Shown: positions 46,349 through 50,438 of the stretch, one piece after another
Numbering within the stretch: the stretch's first letter is position 1
How the letters are laid out: the number at the start of each line of letters is the position of its first letter
Source: an uncultured Bacteroidia bacterium
GTDB lineage: Bacteria; Bacteroidota; Bacteroidia; Bacteroidales; UBA932
Reading direction: 5' to 3'
Length of the DNA stretch: 64,000 bases
Assembly (NCBI GenBank): GCA_902785065.1
Contig: CACZXH010000002.1
Span: 186,001-250,000 of the forward strand
Position numbers and translations under genes: made by a program
Notes under the pieces: generated by a model
What the model was told of the DNA's origin: nothing
The model's input: the letters and a program-made list of their open reading frames with translations, nothing else
Databases searched by the model: none

Positions 46349-46382
46349 GCCGTGGATCGCCCACAACAGCCCCCACAAGGCC

Positions 46383-46400
46383 CCTCGCCACCTGGCGAGG
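46383..46400 (-). terminator. Hairpin just downstream of the ABC-F gene
   Basis: CTCGCCA and TGGCGAG close a short loop directly after the ABC-F stop at 46405; no T run on the minus strand, so it is only a weak terminator candidate. Confidence 0.3.
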
Positions 46401-46404
46401 CACG

Positions 46405-48192
46405 TCAAATCTCCGACAATTCCAGCCAGCGGAGTTCTTTCTCGTCCAGGATACCCTGCAGTTCGCCGTAACGGGTGGAGGCGGTTTGCAATTCAGTGGC
46501 GGAGAGGGTGCCGGAGGATAGCTTGGCTTCGAGGTCAGCCTTTTCGGCTTCCAGGCGCGGGATTTCCTCGTCCAGGGCCTTGAGTTCCTGCTGCTCTTTC
46601 CAGGTGAGTTTTCGTTTGGCAGGGGCTTTCGGTTTGGCAGATTCCTTCGCTGCGCTCGGAATGACCGCTTTCGCCGCCGCCTTCTGCGCGGCTTCGTAGT
46701 CCTTGAAGAAGGTGCGGTATTCGGTGTAGTTGCCGATGAAGTCCTTGACGACGCCGTCGCCGCAGAAGACGAAGAGGTGGTCCACCAGGCGGTCCAGGAA
46801 ATGGCGGTCGTGGGAGACGATAATCAAGGATCCCTTGAACTCCAGCAGGTATTCCTCCAGGATGTCCAGGGTGACGATGTCCAGGTCGTTCGTGGGCTCG
46901 TCCAGGATGAGGAAGTTGGGCTGTTGCAGCAGGATTGTCAGCAGGTACAGCCGCCGCCTCTCGCCGCCGGAGAGCCGCGAGACGGGGTTCATCCACATGT
47001 CGTGCGGAAAGAGGAACCGTTCCAGCAGGTGCGTACTCGGGACGGTGTCCATCACGGTCTGGTTCGGGTCGAACTGCATGCCGGCCTGGTGGTAATAGCC
47101 GATCTTGAGAGATTCGCCGAGGTCTACGATACCAGTCATCTGCCCGCCCATCGACGGGTTCCATTTCCCGGTGATGAGGTTCAGGAAGGTCGTCTTCCCG
47201 GCGGCGTTCCGGCCGACGATCCCCACACGCTCGTATCGCTGGAAATTGTAGCTGAAGTGGCTCAGGTAGCATTTGTCCTCCCACCAGAAGGAAAGGTCCT
47301 TGCAGTTGATGACCTTGTTGCCGAGGTAGGTGCCCTTGATCTGGATTTCGGACATGTCCACCTGCTTGGACACATAGGTGTCCTCCGCCCGCTCCTTCAG
47401 TTCCCAAAAGGCCTGCTTGCGGTATTTGGCCTTGCCGGTGCGGGCGCACGGTGAGGCGTGCATCCATTCCAGCTCCCGCCGGAGGACGTTCCGGACCTTG
47501 TCCGTCTCCGCATTGTAATTGTCGATACGCTCCTGCCGCTTCTCGAGGAAGTTCATGTAGTCGCCGCGGTAGATATAGACCTTGCCCCGGTCCATCTCCA
47601 TCACCGTGTTGCACACGCGGTCCAGGAAATAGCGGTCGTGCGTGACCATGAACAGGGTGCTGCGGGCGTGCTTGAGGTGCTGCTCCAGGAATTCGATGGC
47701 ATCGATATCCAGGTGGTTCGTGGGCTCGTCCATGATGTAGAAGTCGGCCTCGGAGGCGAGCATCTGGGTCAATGCCACCCGCTTGACTTCGCCGCCGGAG
47801 AGGTCTTTCATCGGCTTTTTCCAGTCCGTGAGGGAGAACTGCGTCAGGAGCCGCTGCACCCGGCGCTCGTACTCCCACAGATGGTCCTGGTCCAGGTGCT
47901 CCGTCCATTCGGTGGAGCCGTCCATGATCTGCCGGAAAATGCTCTTCTCGGGGTCGTAGGCATATTCCTGCTCCAGGAAAGCGATGCGTATGTCCTTGAG
48001 GAACAGAATCTTCCCACCGCTGTCGGACTTGTCCTTGCCGGCGAGGATCCGCAGCAGGGAGGTCTTCCCGGTGCCGTTCGGCGCGATGAGCGCGACCTTG
48101 TCGCCCTCGTTGATGTTGAAGTCGATGTGCTCGAACAGCACCTTGGGGCCGTACGACTTGGAAATGTTCTCGATCTGCAGGTAACTTGCCAT
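46405..48192 (-). CDS. ABC-F family ATPase (Uup/EttA-like ribosome-associated)
   Basis: Soluble protein of 595 residues with two ABC domains and no membrane segments. Walker A motifs are APNGTGKT and GRNAAGKT; both LSGGE signatures and Walker B DEPTNHLD / DEPTNDLD are present. The C-terminal 80 residues are a basic linker and coiled coil (RLEAEKADLEAKLSSG), as in Uup. ABC-F proteins act on the ribosome in translation or resistance. The linker contains VIPSAAKES, the translation of a dispersed repeat copy. The promoter box at 48200-48207 ends 7 bases from the ATG. Confidence 0.93.
   Translation of the reverse strand: MASYLQIENISKSYGPKVLFEHIDFNINEGDKVALIAPNGTGKTSLLRILAGKDKSDSGGKILFLKDIRIAFLEQEYAYDPEKSIFRQIMDGSTEWTEHLDQDHLWEYERRVQRLLTQFSLTDWKKPMKDLSGGEVKRVALTQMLASEADFYIMDEPTNHLDIDAIEFLEQHLKHARSTLFMVTHDRYFLDRVCNTVMEMDRGKVYIYRGDYMNFLEKRQERIDNYNAETDKVRNVLRRELEWMHASPCARTGKAKYRKQAFWELKERAEDTYVSKQVDMSEIQIKGTYLGNKVINCKDLSFWWEDKCYLSHFSYNFQRYERVGIVGRNAAGKTTFLNLITGKWNPSMGGQMTGIVDLGESLKIGYYHQAGMQFDPNQTVMDTVPSTHLLERFLFPHDMWMNPVSRLSGGERRRLYLLTILLQQPNFLILDEPTNDLDIVTLDILEEYLLEFKGSLIIVSHDRHFLDRLVDHLFVFCGDGVVKDFIGNYTEYRTFFKDYEAAQKAAAKAVIPSAAKESAKPKAPAKRKLTWKEQQELKALDEEIPRLEAEKADLEAKLSSGTLSATELQTASTRYGELQGILDEKELRWLELSEI
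46640..46667 (-). repeat. Dispersed repeat translated inside the ABC-F gene
   Basis: AGATTCCTTCGCTG continuing to CGCTCGGAATGACC on the plus strand, the GGAATCT/GTCATTCC form of the repeat seen at 61645. In frame it encodes VIPSAAKES in the linker before the C-terminal coiled coil. Confidence 0.7.
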
Positions 48193-48250: not shown

Positions 48251-48264
48251 GAGGTGTCTTTGAC

Positions 48265-48458
48265 GGGTCAGCACACCTACTTTTTCAACATGCTGATTTT
48301 TAATCAATTACAAATCCACCCGTGCTAACCCCCTCCCTTTTCAGTAGGGTTTAGCACGCCCGCGTGCTGACCCCTCCGAAAAACGGGTGGGGTTGGTACA
48401 AGGCAATTATGAAGGCATTGTGGATCAGTGTGTTATGAAACGTAGCGTGCTGACCCCC
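48265..48458. repeat. Left REP-like cluster of the RAYT cassette
   Basis: A forward subunit (48265-48333, GGGTCAGCAC ... GTGCTAACCCC with AACATGCTGATT inside) is followed by a hairpin core (CCCTCCCTTTTCAGTAGGG, then TAGCACGCCCGCGTGCTGA) and an inverted subunit ending GCGTGCTGACCCC. The part from 48329 on mirrors the right cluster. Confidence 0.8.
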
Positions 48459-48515
48459 TCAAGGGCCAGTCCCGGCCCCCTGCCCCCGTTCCGCACCTGG
48501 CTAGTCTTACGCCCC

Positions 48516-49379
48516 CTATAGCCAGTCTTCCAGGAGGGTTTTGCCAACTCCGAGGACCCGTTGCAGTTGCTCGGCCGAGGTGCCGAAGCGCATGGACAAA
48601 GTGCGGCACAGGCGGAGGAGTTCCTTGGCGGGGAGCTGGCGATGGTCCTTGACATTCAGTTCGTTCTGGCAGATGGTCTGCACCCGGGCGGCGATTTCCT
48701 GATCGCTGAACTTGAGCTCCATCGGCAGGCCGGACAACTGGTTGCGCCGCGCCTCGACCGGTTCCATCAGCCGTCGGAGGTAAGTGGCCTCGTCGTTCTC
48801 GAAGGCTTTCTCGACAGCCTTCCAGTTCACAAAGTGAGGAATGACCATGCCGTTTTCTGCAATCTCCCAGTGTCCCGGAATCCGGACATTGGTCTTCAGC
48901 ATCCGGCGCAGTTCACGGGCCGTGAACGTGGACGCTTTCCGACCAACCCATTGGCCGCGCCTGGAAAAGTACATGCCGACCGAACTCCACGGGTAGTCGC
49001 CCGGGTAGCAGATCTTTGCCTTGAAAGGGTTCCGCAGCAGGTACAGTACCTCGATGACGAAATGATCGACCCCCTTGACGACTACCACTTCCCGATTCTC
49101 CGGTCCATAGGGCACTACACCGCTCAACCCGTATTTCCTTTTCAGCCAGAGGGAAAGTCGATGCATCACCGCATCATAGTAGGCCTCACACTGCTCTCTG
49201 GGCCCACCCAGCAGGAGATGGATATGGTTGCTCATCAGCGTGAAGGCATAGACCACCACGCCCGGAAACTGGAGCAGGATCAAGGCCAAGGTGTTGACCC
49301 CATAGATATAATCCTCCTCATCCCGGAACAGCAGTTCCTTCTCCAACTTCTTGGAATTGATCTGAAAGCACGGCTTCAT
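48516..49379 (-). CDS. REP-associated tyrosine transposase (RAYT; Y1_Tnp / IS200-like)
   Basis: Protein of 287 residues. The HUH motif NHIHLLL (His52, His54) is present; Tyr113 in VLYLLRNPFKAK is the likely catalytic tyrosine, followed by the family signature PGDYPWSSVGMYF. The C-terminal 90 residues form a helical domain with a helix-turn-helix-like end (SAEQLQRVLGVGKTLLEDWL) that could bind the repeat hairpins. RAYTs are single-copy domesticated relatives of IS200/IS605 transposases thought to move or cut REP sequences. Start 49379 (MKPCFQINSKKLEK) is preferred over 49427, since the family similarity begins here. Confidence 0.88.
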   Translation of the reverse strand: MKPCFQINSKKLEKELLFRDEEDYIYGVNTLALILLQFPGVVVYAFTLMSNHIHLLLGGPREQCEAYYDAVMHRLSLWLKRKYGLSGVVPYGPENREVVVVKGVDHFVIEVLYLLRNPFKAKICYPGDYPWSSVGMYFSRRGQWVGRKASTFTARELRRMLKTNVRIPGHWEIAENGMVIPHFVNWKAVEKAFENDEATYLRRLMEPVEARRNQLSGLPMELKFSDQEIAARVQTICQNELNVKDHRQLPAKELLRLCRTLSMRFGTSAEQLQRVLGVGKTLLEDWL

Positions 49380-49614
49380 GTCCTTTCTTTTTTGTCCCAA
49401 GGTACACCCGCCGCCCGCATTCAGCAAGGGATTGTTGATAACTTGTGTTGTTTCACTATGTATTTTATGTGTTTCTTGTTACATTTTGTTCGAAATCCAT
49501 CGTAACGGACATCCCAAACTTCACTCGATTACTTTATAGCCCGACACCTGCTTTTTACGCCCCGCATGGACCGGAGTACAGGACTTGGAGCGTCGGATTC
49601 CTGGTGGAGTATTA

Positions 49615-49743
49615 GGGGTTAGCACGCTTTGGTTTATAACATGCTGATTCATAAAGCTTTCATAATTGTCTTGTACTAACCCCTCCTGTTTTTCGGAGGG
49701 GTCAGCACGCGGGCGTGCTAGACCCTCCCGAAAAGGGAGGGGG
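49615..49743. repeat. Right REP-like repeat of the RAYT cassette
   Basis: GGGGTTAGCACGC, AACATGCTGATT, TTGTACTAACCCCTCC, then the core hairpins GGGGTCAGCACGCGGGCGTG and CCCTCCCGAAAAGGGAGGG. Its reverse complement matches 48329-48458 along the full length with scattered substitutions. Confidence 0.8.
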
Positions 49744-49826
49744 TGCGATGGCGAGAGACAACCTTTTTTTCTGACAATACCACTTTGATTTTATGGCCAC
49801 AGCCTTGGGTTTTGGCCATTTTTTAT

Positions 49827-49877: not shown

Positions 49878-50438
49878 ATGGACAAACTCCAAGAACTCAC
49901 CCAGAAGCTGTACGAGGAAGGTCTCGCCAAGGGAAAACAGGACGGCGAAGCCCTCCTCCAGAAAGCCCAGGCCGCCATCCTCGCCAAGGCCCGCAAGGAC
50001 GCCGAGGACTTCAAGGTCAAGGTCGAGGGCGACGTGAAGATGGCCGCCCAGCAGGCCGTCCAGGCCACCCGCACGGACATCGAGAACCTCGTGGTCTCGA
50101 AGGTCGTGGACGGCACCGTGGACAAGGCCCTCGCCAATGAAGACTTCATCAAGGGCATTATCACCGCCGTGGCGCAGAAATTCTCCGCCGATGAGCCCGC
50201 GGACCTCTCCCTCGTCCTTCCGGAAAGCCTGAAGTCCGCGCTCGAGCCCTTCGTCAAGAACGAACTCGGCAAGCTCCTCGGCAAGGGGATCGACGCCTCC
50301 TTCTCCAAGAAGGTCGCCGGCGGCTTCAAGATCGGCCCCAAGGACGGCGGCTACTTCGTGAGCCTCACGGATGAGACCTTCAAGGACCTCATCGGCAGCT
50401 ACCTGCGTCCCGCGACGAAGAAACTCCTGTTCGGGTAG
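49878..50438 (+). CDS. atpE: V-type ATP synthase subunit E
   Basis: Peripheral stalk subunit of 186 residues. The N-terminal half is a long charged helix (QELTQKLYEEGLAKGKQDGEALLQKAQAAILAKARKDAE region) and the C-terminal half is globular, as in the E subunit of A/V-type ATPases. First gene of the operon E-DUF2764-A-B-D-I-K. The partner stalk subunit G/H is not seen. Its TAG stop is the beginning of a dispersed repeat (50436-50463). Confidence 0.85.
   Translation: MDKLQELTQKLYEEGLAKGKQDGEALLQKAQAAILAKARKDAEDFKVKVEGDVKMAAQQAVQATRTDIENLVVSKVVDGTVDKALANEDFIKGIITAVAQKFSADEPADLSLVLPESLKSALEPFVKNELGKLLGKGIDASFSKKVAGGFKIGPKDGGYFVSLTDETFKDLIGSYLRPATKKLLFG

Follow-up and report, generated by a model that had tools for sequence, protein, structure and literature searches.

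In the present study, a RAYT gene enclosed by two long repeats was analysed within a stretch of 64,000 nucleotides (the window, which denotes the whole of this DNA), and the results indicate that the locus is probably a domesticated RAYT-type system of the REPtron/TIRtron kind and not an insertion sequence (IS). The system is described as domesticated because the gene is under purifying selection and keeps a fixed location. As judged from comparison between genomes, the system is marked by the anatomy of its repeat units, the pairing of many genes in the family with repeats particular to them, purifying selection, solo units that vary between species, inversions that end at the units, and the divergence or replacement of gene-repeat cassettes at three loci.

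The RAYT protein and its repeat units

The RAYT/TnpA_Y1-like gene (48516..49427, minus strand) encodes a protein of 303 aa with the HUH motif NHIH (H68, H70), a catalytic-type tyrosine (Tyr129, in YLLRNP) and a helical C-terminal region. H68, H70, Y129 and N133 were invariant in all 77 aligned family proteins (77 of 78, the 726-aa frame of locus L020 being left out). In a subset of 34 of these 78 proteins (set A2), the NCBIfam family REP_Tyr_transpos matched 30 members at E <= 0.1 (best E 6.5e-13), and the Pfam family Y1_Tnp matched 21 at the same threshold (best E 1.4e-5). Taken alone, the window protein matched REP_Tyr_transpos with E 0.088 and 12.7 bits, the cut-off being 80, and no Pfam family at E <= 1. 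The family profile also matched the HUH stretch of the ISDra2 TnpA (PDB 2xm3; E = 0.021). On the evidence of these motifs and profiles, the 303-aa protein is best classed as a divergent RAYT. At the window locus, the dN/dS of the gene was 0.07-0.18 in ten of ten pairs among five species.

The sequence-only reading of this DNA had described long repeats and a RAYT-like HUH protein extended at its C-terminus, and this description was borne out. In the predicted model, helices lie within residues 242-302, in a block with pLDDT of 66-81 up to residue 300, and a divergent helix-turn-helix (HTH) in this region is possible. HTH_23 and HTH_28 were absent among the Pfam matches at E 0.1, which held only weak single-member matches to other HTH families. 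Bac_DnaA_C (PF08299) was found at a single place in the genome, taken as DnaA, and not in the RAYT, and the comparison of the RAYT family profile with that DnaA protein gave E 0.47; on these two results, a C-terminus of the DnaA-domain-IV type was dropped as an established fact. Placement by structure was dropped as well, the AlphaFold model (5 close sequences) having a mean pLDDT of 46.7 and Foldseek matches at the level of noise, none with E <= 0.001. PADLOC returned nothing save one weak Cas5b match, taken as chance.

Around the gene, positions 48328-48457 and 49615-49744 form an inverted repeat of 130 nt with 86% complementarity (alignment score 170, versus at most 21 in 20 shuffles), in agreement with the imperfect inverted repeats of about 130 bp proposed earlier. 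The extra direct subunit that had been read at the left is instead the first third of one complete unit of 194 bp (48264..48457, plus strand), since the motif GGGGTYAGCAC recurs at fixed offsets within it (0+, 58-, 83+, 100-, 125+ and 183- in the motif scan). According to the motif scan, the unit alignment and the predicted fold, this unit is near-palindromic and carries six copies of the motif in alternating orientation, each with 0-2 mismatches. Its central palindrome (48347..48374, plus strand; TTTAGCACGC CC GCGTGCTGA) is paired in the predicted folds. The right unit (49615..49744, plus strand) is truncated to 130 of 194 bp by the absence of the last third, and its counterpart is complete in two relatives, L044 and L045. 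The window and five relatives together provided nine complete units, which were aligned without gaps (mean column identity 84%); GTAG was present in four of these copies and GGAG in five. As single-stranded DNA, the left unit is predicted to form a single long hairpin with nested stems (z = -5.5), and the truncated right unit to keep the core hairpin (z = -4.8). No covariation was present in the unit alignment, and this line of support for the fold was dropped; the conservation of the motif lies in its sequence.

The window locus in related species

The RAYT gene was observed at one locus, with neighbours in common, across six related species (loci L042-L047, where L044 is the same sequence as the stretch from genome G003 and L047 lies in genome G065). 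Window-type (W-type) orthologs with 86-97% aa identity are present in L042-L045, and the units adjoin these orthologous genes. Only the 3' part of the gene (78%) is present in L046, and the gene of L047 has decayed to 57 codons. By sequence comparison, the window locus is regarded as one allele type across the relatives, the nearest named records being RUG records, which we take to be rumen genomes, plus one from a roe-deer omasum.

The left neighbour is an ABC-F ATPase gene (46405..48192, minus strand; Pfam and locus comparison). It points its N-terminal end towards the unit in the window and L044, and its C-terminal end in L043, L045, L047 and, as far as it is covered there, L042. The right neighbour (49878..50438, plus strand) has no Pfam match and is probably a V-type ATPase subunit E, as named from the gene order. 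In a scan of 30 genus loci of this gene, no RAYT was found within 1.5 kb at 28, an absence of weak weight since the RAYT of L042 lies 2.5 kb away and only 1.5 kb was covered. Two further observations concern these neighbours. In L042, an ORF (L042:6249-8990) joins the start of a UvrD-like helicase, named by eye, to the ABC-F end and resembles either a gene fusion or an artefact of chimeric assembly. A gene for an Omp85-domain outer-membrane protein stands by the V-ATPase cluster in L047 (1190-2515), L043 (1226-2551) and L045 (4207-5532) and is missing in the window.

In L042, L043 and L045, two units enclose a block of five genes, the RAYT being separated from the next unit by an operon. This operon encodes an ECF sigma factor, a protein of 144 aa with the appearance of an anti-sigma factor, a protein of 158 aa and a protein of porin-like or other outer-membrane type, the last differing in L045. 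Pfam matches were obtained for the intact sigma gene of L042 (Sigma70_r2 and r4) and for its 158-aa protein (DUF6108), and the other two proteins had none. The operon has been lost in the window and L044. A tblastn search with the intact L042 gene located a sigma-factor remnant in the window (49378..49509, plus strand; residues 1-48, 71% aa identity), divergent from the RAYT ORF and overlapping its 5' end, and comparison with L042 revealed the last 29 codons of the last operon gene (49526..49612, plus strand; 83%), which is porin-like by appearance without a Pfam match. Because sigma residues 1-48 and the last 29 porin-like residues have been kept, the spacer before the right repeat in the window is a deletion scar. 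Directly upstream of the RAYT start, an element of about 50-80 bp was also noticed (49429-49477; AAACACATAAAATACATA..TGAAACAACAC.AGTTATC.ACAA, with a DnaA-box-like core), which recurs in the relatives and at several sites of the window's genome; it may be part of the promoter of the lost ECF-sigma gene.

These observations bear on a reading of the locus as an IS200/IS605-like element, either still active or decayed not long ago, in which the repeats would be the ends and the whole element would transpose. A gene between hairpin-bearing repeats and an HUH/Y1 protein would suit such an element, as would the finding that, among the matches listed for the 37 genus genomes, the W-type gene is present only in the window's genome and G003 (94%), the next best match being 37%. 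However, the matches listed contain one W-type gene per genome, always at the same locus; the neighbours are common to six species; dN/dS is low; and a block of five genes lies between the two units in L042, L043 and L045. Several near-identical copies of gene plus ends, as expected of an IS, were not found in the window's genome. The protein shares the HUH stretch with the ISDra2 TnpA of IS200/IS605, whereas its gene is without sign of mobility and its C-terminal region is additional. An IS was rejected on account of the single W-type gene and its stable place, and we hold it to be highly improbable. In other words, of the domesticated IS200/IS605 element suggested earlier, the domestication is retained, given the purifying selection and fixed place, and the IS is not.

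The window's genome (2.74 Mb, 50 contigs, 95% complete) contains the 194-bp unit only as the two flanking copies; in the search of the whole assembly, three further matches of 14-19 nt were obtained and no solo W-type unit. In G003, a solo unit (L044:6115-6308) lies 2 kb from the RAYT gene, beyond the ABC-F gene, and is absent at the corresponding approximate place in the window (46360..46385, no strand assigned). In G065, one complete solo with the exact motif spacing (L157) and one truncated solo (L158), an assignment that replaces a view of the two places as remnants, lie on contigs other than that of L047, and their surroundings have no similarity to the window or the loci of the six relatives except for a 65-bp match. 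The solo copies with a single gene that the sequence-only reading had envisaged are absent from the window's genome and present in G003 and G065. Its opposite case, of no further copies and no relatives with the repeats, agrees with the lack of further copies in the genome and disagrees with the relatives, which carry the repeats beside orthologs and as solos.

The orientation of the block also varied. Relative to the V-ATPase gene, the RAYT has one orientation in L045 and L046 and the opposite one in the window, L042, L043 and L044. An inverted repeat-RAYT-repeat block was also seen at a second locus, in L194 (genome G061) versus L009 (genome G000), where the alignment switches strand inside the 90-nt repeats. 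Misassembly at repeats is possible, since these are metagenome assemblies, L045 and L046 are short, and the inversion ends at repeats. The opposite blocks next to the units, and the L194 inversion with its ends inside the repeats, are what a programmed inversion switch would produce, in which the RAYT would flip the block between the units. Nevertheless, the repeat pairs of the family, although near-palindromic, are mostly direct; the window and L044 have lost the ECF operon; and the inversions were seen only between species, in metagenome contigs. Such a switch is considered unlikely, if slightly less so in view of the L194 inversion.

Gene-specific repeats across the family

The family consists of RAYTs of about 300 aa, with six members in the window's genome. 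Among the matches listed, 33 of 61 genomes (own included) had family matches, all within the 37 of the genus and none among the 24 from other families, and six near relatives had 6 to 16 match rows each in the profile search, fragments and split genes counted. When the family profile was searched against 149 genomes of the order (E <= 1e-10), matches along its full length were confined to the window's genus (2 genomes); in 17 other matching genomes, the matches fell within profile positions 3-160, the catalytic part. The proposal of a distinct RAYT group is supported by this distribution.

Repeat pairs were scored by comparing upstream with downstream flanks at a threshold of 34. From among the matches listed, a larger set, 80 loci were selected, of which 78 were usable (L093 and L100, with no match, being left out); the shuffle test of repeat scores left out two more for short flanks. 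Paired flanking repeats were observed at 46 of 78 RAYT loci and at 3 of 78 control frames, the controls being stop-to-stop frames of more than 250 codons on both strands of the window, many of which are not genes. One of 20 shuffles reached the threshold in 1/78 loci. No pair exceeded the threshold at 32 of 78 loci, among them L008, with a score of 32 just below it and yet with visible direct copies. In the 46 loci, the direct alignment was better in 37, the inverted in 8, and the two were equal in one. Inversion within the 29 strongest pairs was limited to the window and its ortholog L013, so that the fixed inverted arrangement first regarded as a hallmark of the group does not hold for the family. 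L009 was ranked as inverted because the ORF start had been set too far upstream; its actual repeats are direct 90-nt copies with 93% identity.

The repeats are largely particular to each gene. Of 946 locus pairs, 31 have a protein identity of >=50%, and the arms were alike in five of these; among the 915 less similar pairs there was no such case. The repeats were not shared in the other 26 of 31, which may reflect fast turnover or a weak link; within one genome, for example, the proteins of L009 and L011 are 62% alike and their repeats unrelated. When 15 joined arms were searched against 12 genomes, at least 11 of 15 repeat types had solo copies in their own genome among the matches listed, several of them within about 6 kb of their RAYT gene, and no own-genome solo was among the matches listed for the W, L040, L078 and L024 types. 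The L017-type repeat forms arrays with a period of about 74 bp at several places in genome G016 (e.g. contig C4:197115-199779). At four sites, a solo unit was present in one species and absent in another; the site of L132 in G061, considered as an empty one, was found to be filled and was ruled out. The comparison of insertion sites in relatives suggested by the sequence-only reading thus yielded variable solos at four sites, and no exact target site or duplication was readable in the diverged intergenic DNA around them.

The units fold well, are intergenic and are without covariation, and both a complete and a truncated W-type solo persist in G065 despite the decayed gene. These features are compatible with passive host repeats or terminators, to which the RAYT would be a bystander associated through shared descent. 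Against this, the association holds at 46 of 78 loci versus 3 of 78 controls, homologous genes have different repeats, and, at a fixed locus, a change of gene is accompanied by a change of repeats; we find purely passive repeats quite improbable.

Herein, we favour the domesticated RAYT-type system and propose the following course of action. A 303-aa HUH/Y1 nuclease, kept by selection at one place with two 194-bp palindromic units of its own, would use the repeated motif to bind the unit in its folded single-stranded form, and Tyr129 would cleave it. The C-terminal region probably aids recognition. Single units would be copied or moved at a low rate, often nearby, with the gene itself staying in place. 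Ordinary recombination would then invert blocks or exchange cassettes by way of the homology between the near-palindromic units.

Cassette divergence and relation to known systems

Orthologous loci were compared for 36 loci, namely the six of the window's genome and 30 others (29 of 64 profile match rows, plus L057). Outer flanks identified 32 orthologous-locus pairs, and in 23 of these an outer flank was at least 88% identical over at least 300 bp. The RAYT was 81-98% identical (aa) in 12 of the 23 well-flanked pairs (six loci) and 58-67% in the other 11, which, as pairs within one locus are not independent, represent three loci (the L008, L010 and L012 types). In the remaining nine pairs, with less similar flanks, the RAYT was 60-87% identical. 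Most segments of the diverged L008- and L012-type pairs showed 34-62% identity over the repeats, with 42-72% over the gene and approximately 77-99% again outside, on at least one side. For L008 versus L196, the lowered identity extends about 900 bp upstream; for L008 versus L211, the downstream side stays low; and for L010 versus L199, the gene is at 53-79% with recovery on the downstream side only. By eye, the repeat of the L008 locus is of the GAGGTTGGGAACC type in G000 versus the GGGTCTGC type in G003. The comparison of L012 with L218 revealed a mosaic, near-identical at the 5' end and N-terminus and diverged at the 3' end (33% in the last alignment block), which suggests recombination inside the gene. 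Genes of the same locus formed a clade at seven of eight loci, and the gene that broke this pattern at the remaining one (L194) belongs to the same locus in inverted form. Therefore, the genes stayed put while diverging, which again argues against an IS. The divergence of the cassettes could result from exchange between species or from accelerated change.

The system was compared with known ones as these are described in the accessible parts of the cited articles. First, in the TIRtron/TIRYT elements reported by the Di Nocera group in 2013 (PMC3733652), the repeats are terminal inverted repeats with the motif GGGGWSAS. The likeness includes a RAYT-like gene between long repeats, some of them self-complementary, repeats peculiar to each gene, low to moderate copy number, and the resemblance of GGGGWSAS to GGGGTCAG of the window units, in which only some motif copies fit GGGGWSAS exactly. 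Long terminal inverted repeats are present at the window (130 nt, 86%). In contrast, direct pairs dominate in the window's family, of 44 loci, the window and L013 alone carry GGGGWSAS in both arms (shuffle mean 0.15), and Bac_DnaA_C was not found. Second, the family shares with TnpA_Y1 subclass 2.1 (Quentin 2018, PMC6006769), as described there, the NHxH and Y...NP motifs, an SS motif (WSS) and a C-terminal extension, and with subclass 2.6 of the same source an occurrence mostly in Bacteroidetes and atypical secondary structures with copies elsewhere. Unlike these subclasses, the text of which gives medians of 238 and 179 aa, the family has about 300 aa and full-length matches in one sampled genus, this being a comparison by description; the C-terminal Bac_DnaA_C, HTH_23 or HTH_28 of subclass 2.1 was not found.

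Third, in the REPIN-RAYT/REPtron systems of E. coli and others, as far as the available descriptions extend (PMC8049555, PMC8266576), there is usually one gene per repeat type, the gene is immobile, and non-autonomous palindromic units are dispersed without the gene, clustering near it in Marinomonas; in these respects the family is similar. RAYT/TnpA_REP features were recognised in the HUH motif with Y1 tyrosine, one gene per repeat type, purifying selection and stable location, and own flanking repeats with gene-less copies in much of the family, for the window type through the solos of G003 and G065. However, the units of the window family are about 90-200 bp, compared with REPs of 20-40 bp, and have few copies; there are up to 16 gene match rows per genome; and cassettes diverge sharply between species at three fixed loci. 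The conserved GT[AG]G at the hairpin foot of GTAG REPtrons is not found, GTAG being present in both arms at 9 of 44 loci, with a shuffle mean of 15.5. The loop word TCAGNNNGTTANNAA is conserved at only 2 of 78 loci, and upstream DnaA boxes occur at 5 of 78. Among the matches listed from the open literature, in a search where the genus name was not a term and subscription papers were mostly outside, there was no paper on the RAYTs of these bacteria or on cassette exchange.

Herein, we also advance a tentative hypothesis, to which we give somewhat less than an even chance, that the repeat-RAYT-repeat cassettes constitute a multi-locus system of locus-specific allele lineages, in which nuclease and repeat specificity might co-diversify and be swapped between species through recombination in the flanks. 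Each fixed place would then hold, depending on the species, a similar cassette or one with a protein of only about 60% identity and other repeats, set in surroundings of about 90% identity. Such exchange may be likened to that of restriction-modification or toxin-immunity loci, and it would contrast with the mainly vertical picture of RAYTs, which are described as domesticated transposases present in one copy and passed on vertically (PMC8049555). Where one genus holds up to 16 RAYT match rows in a genome, and many of these have a repeat of their own, dozens of natural nuclease/hairpin pairs become available from which a recognition code could be read. Moreover, genes and repeats that differ together at fixed loci provide a setting in which to ask what selection keeps this diversity.
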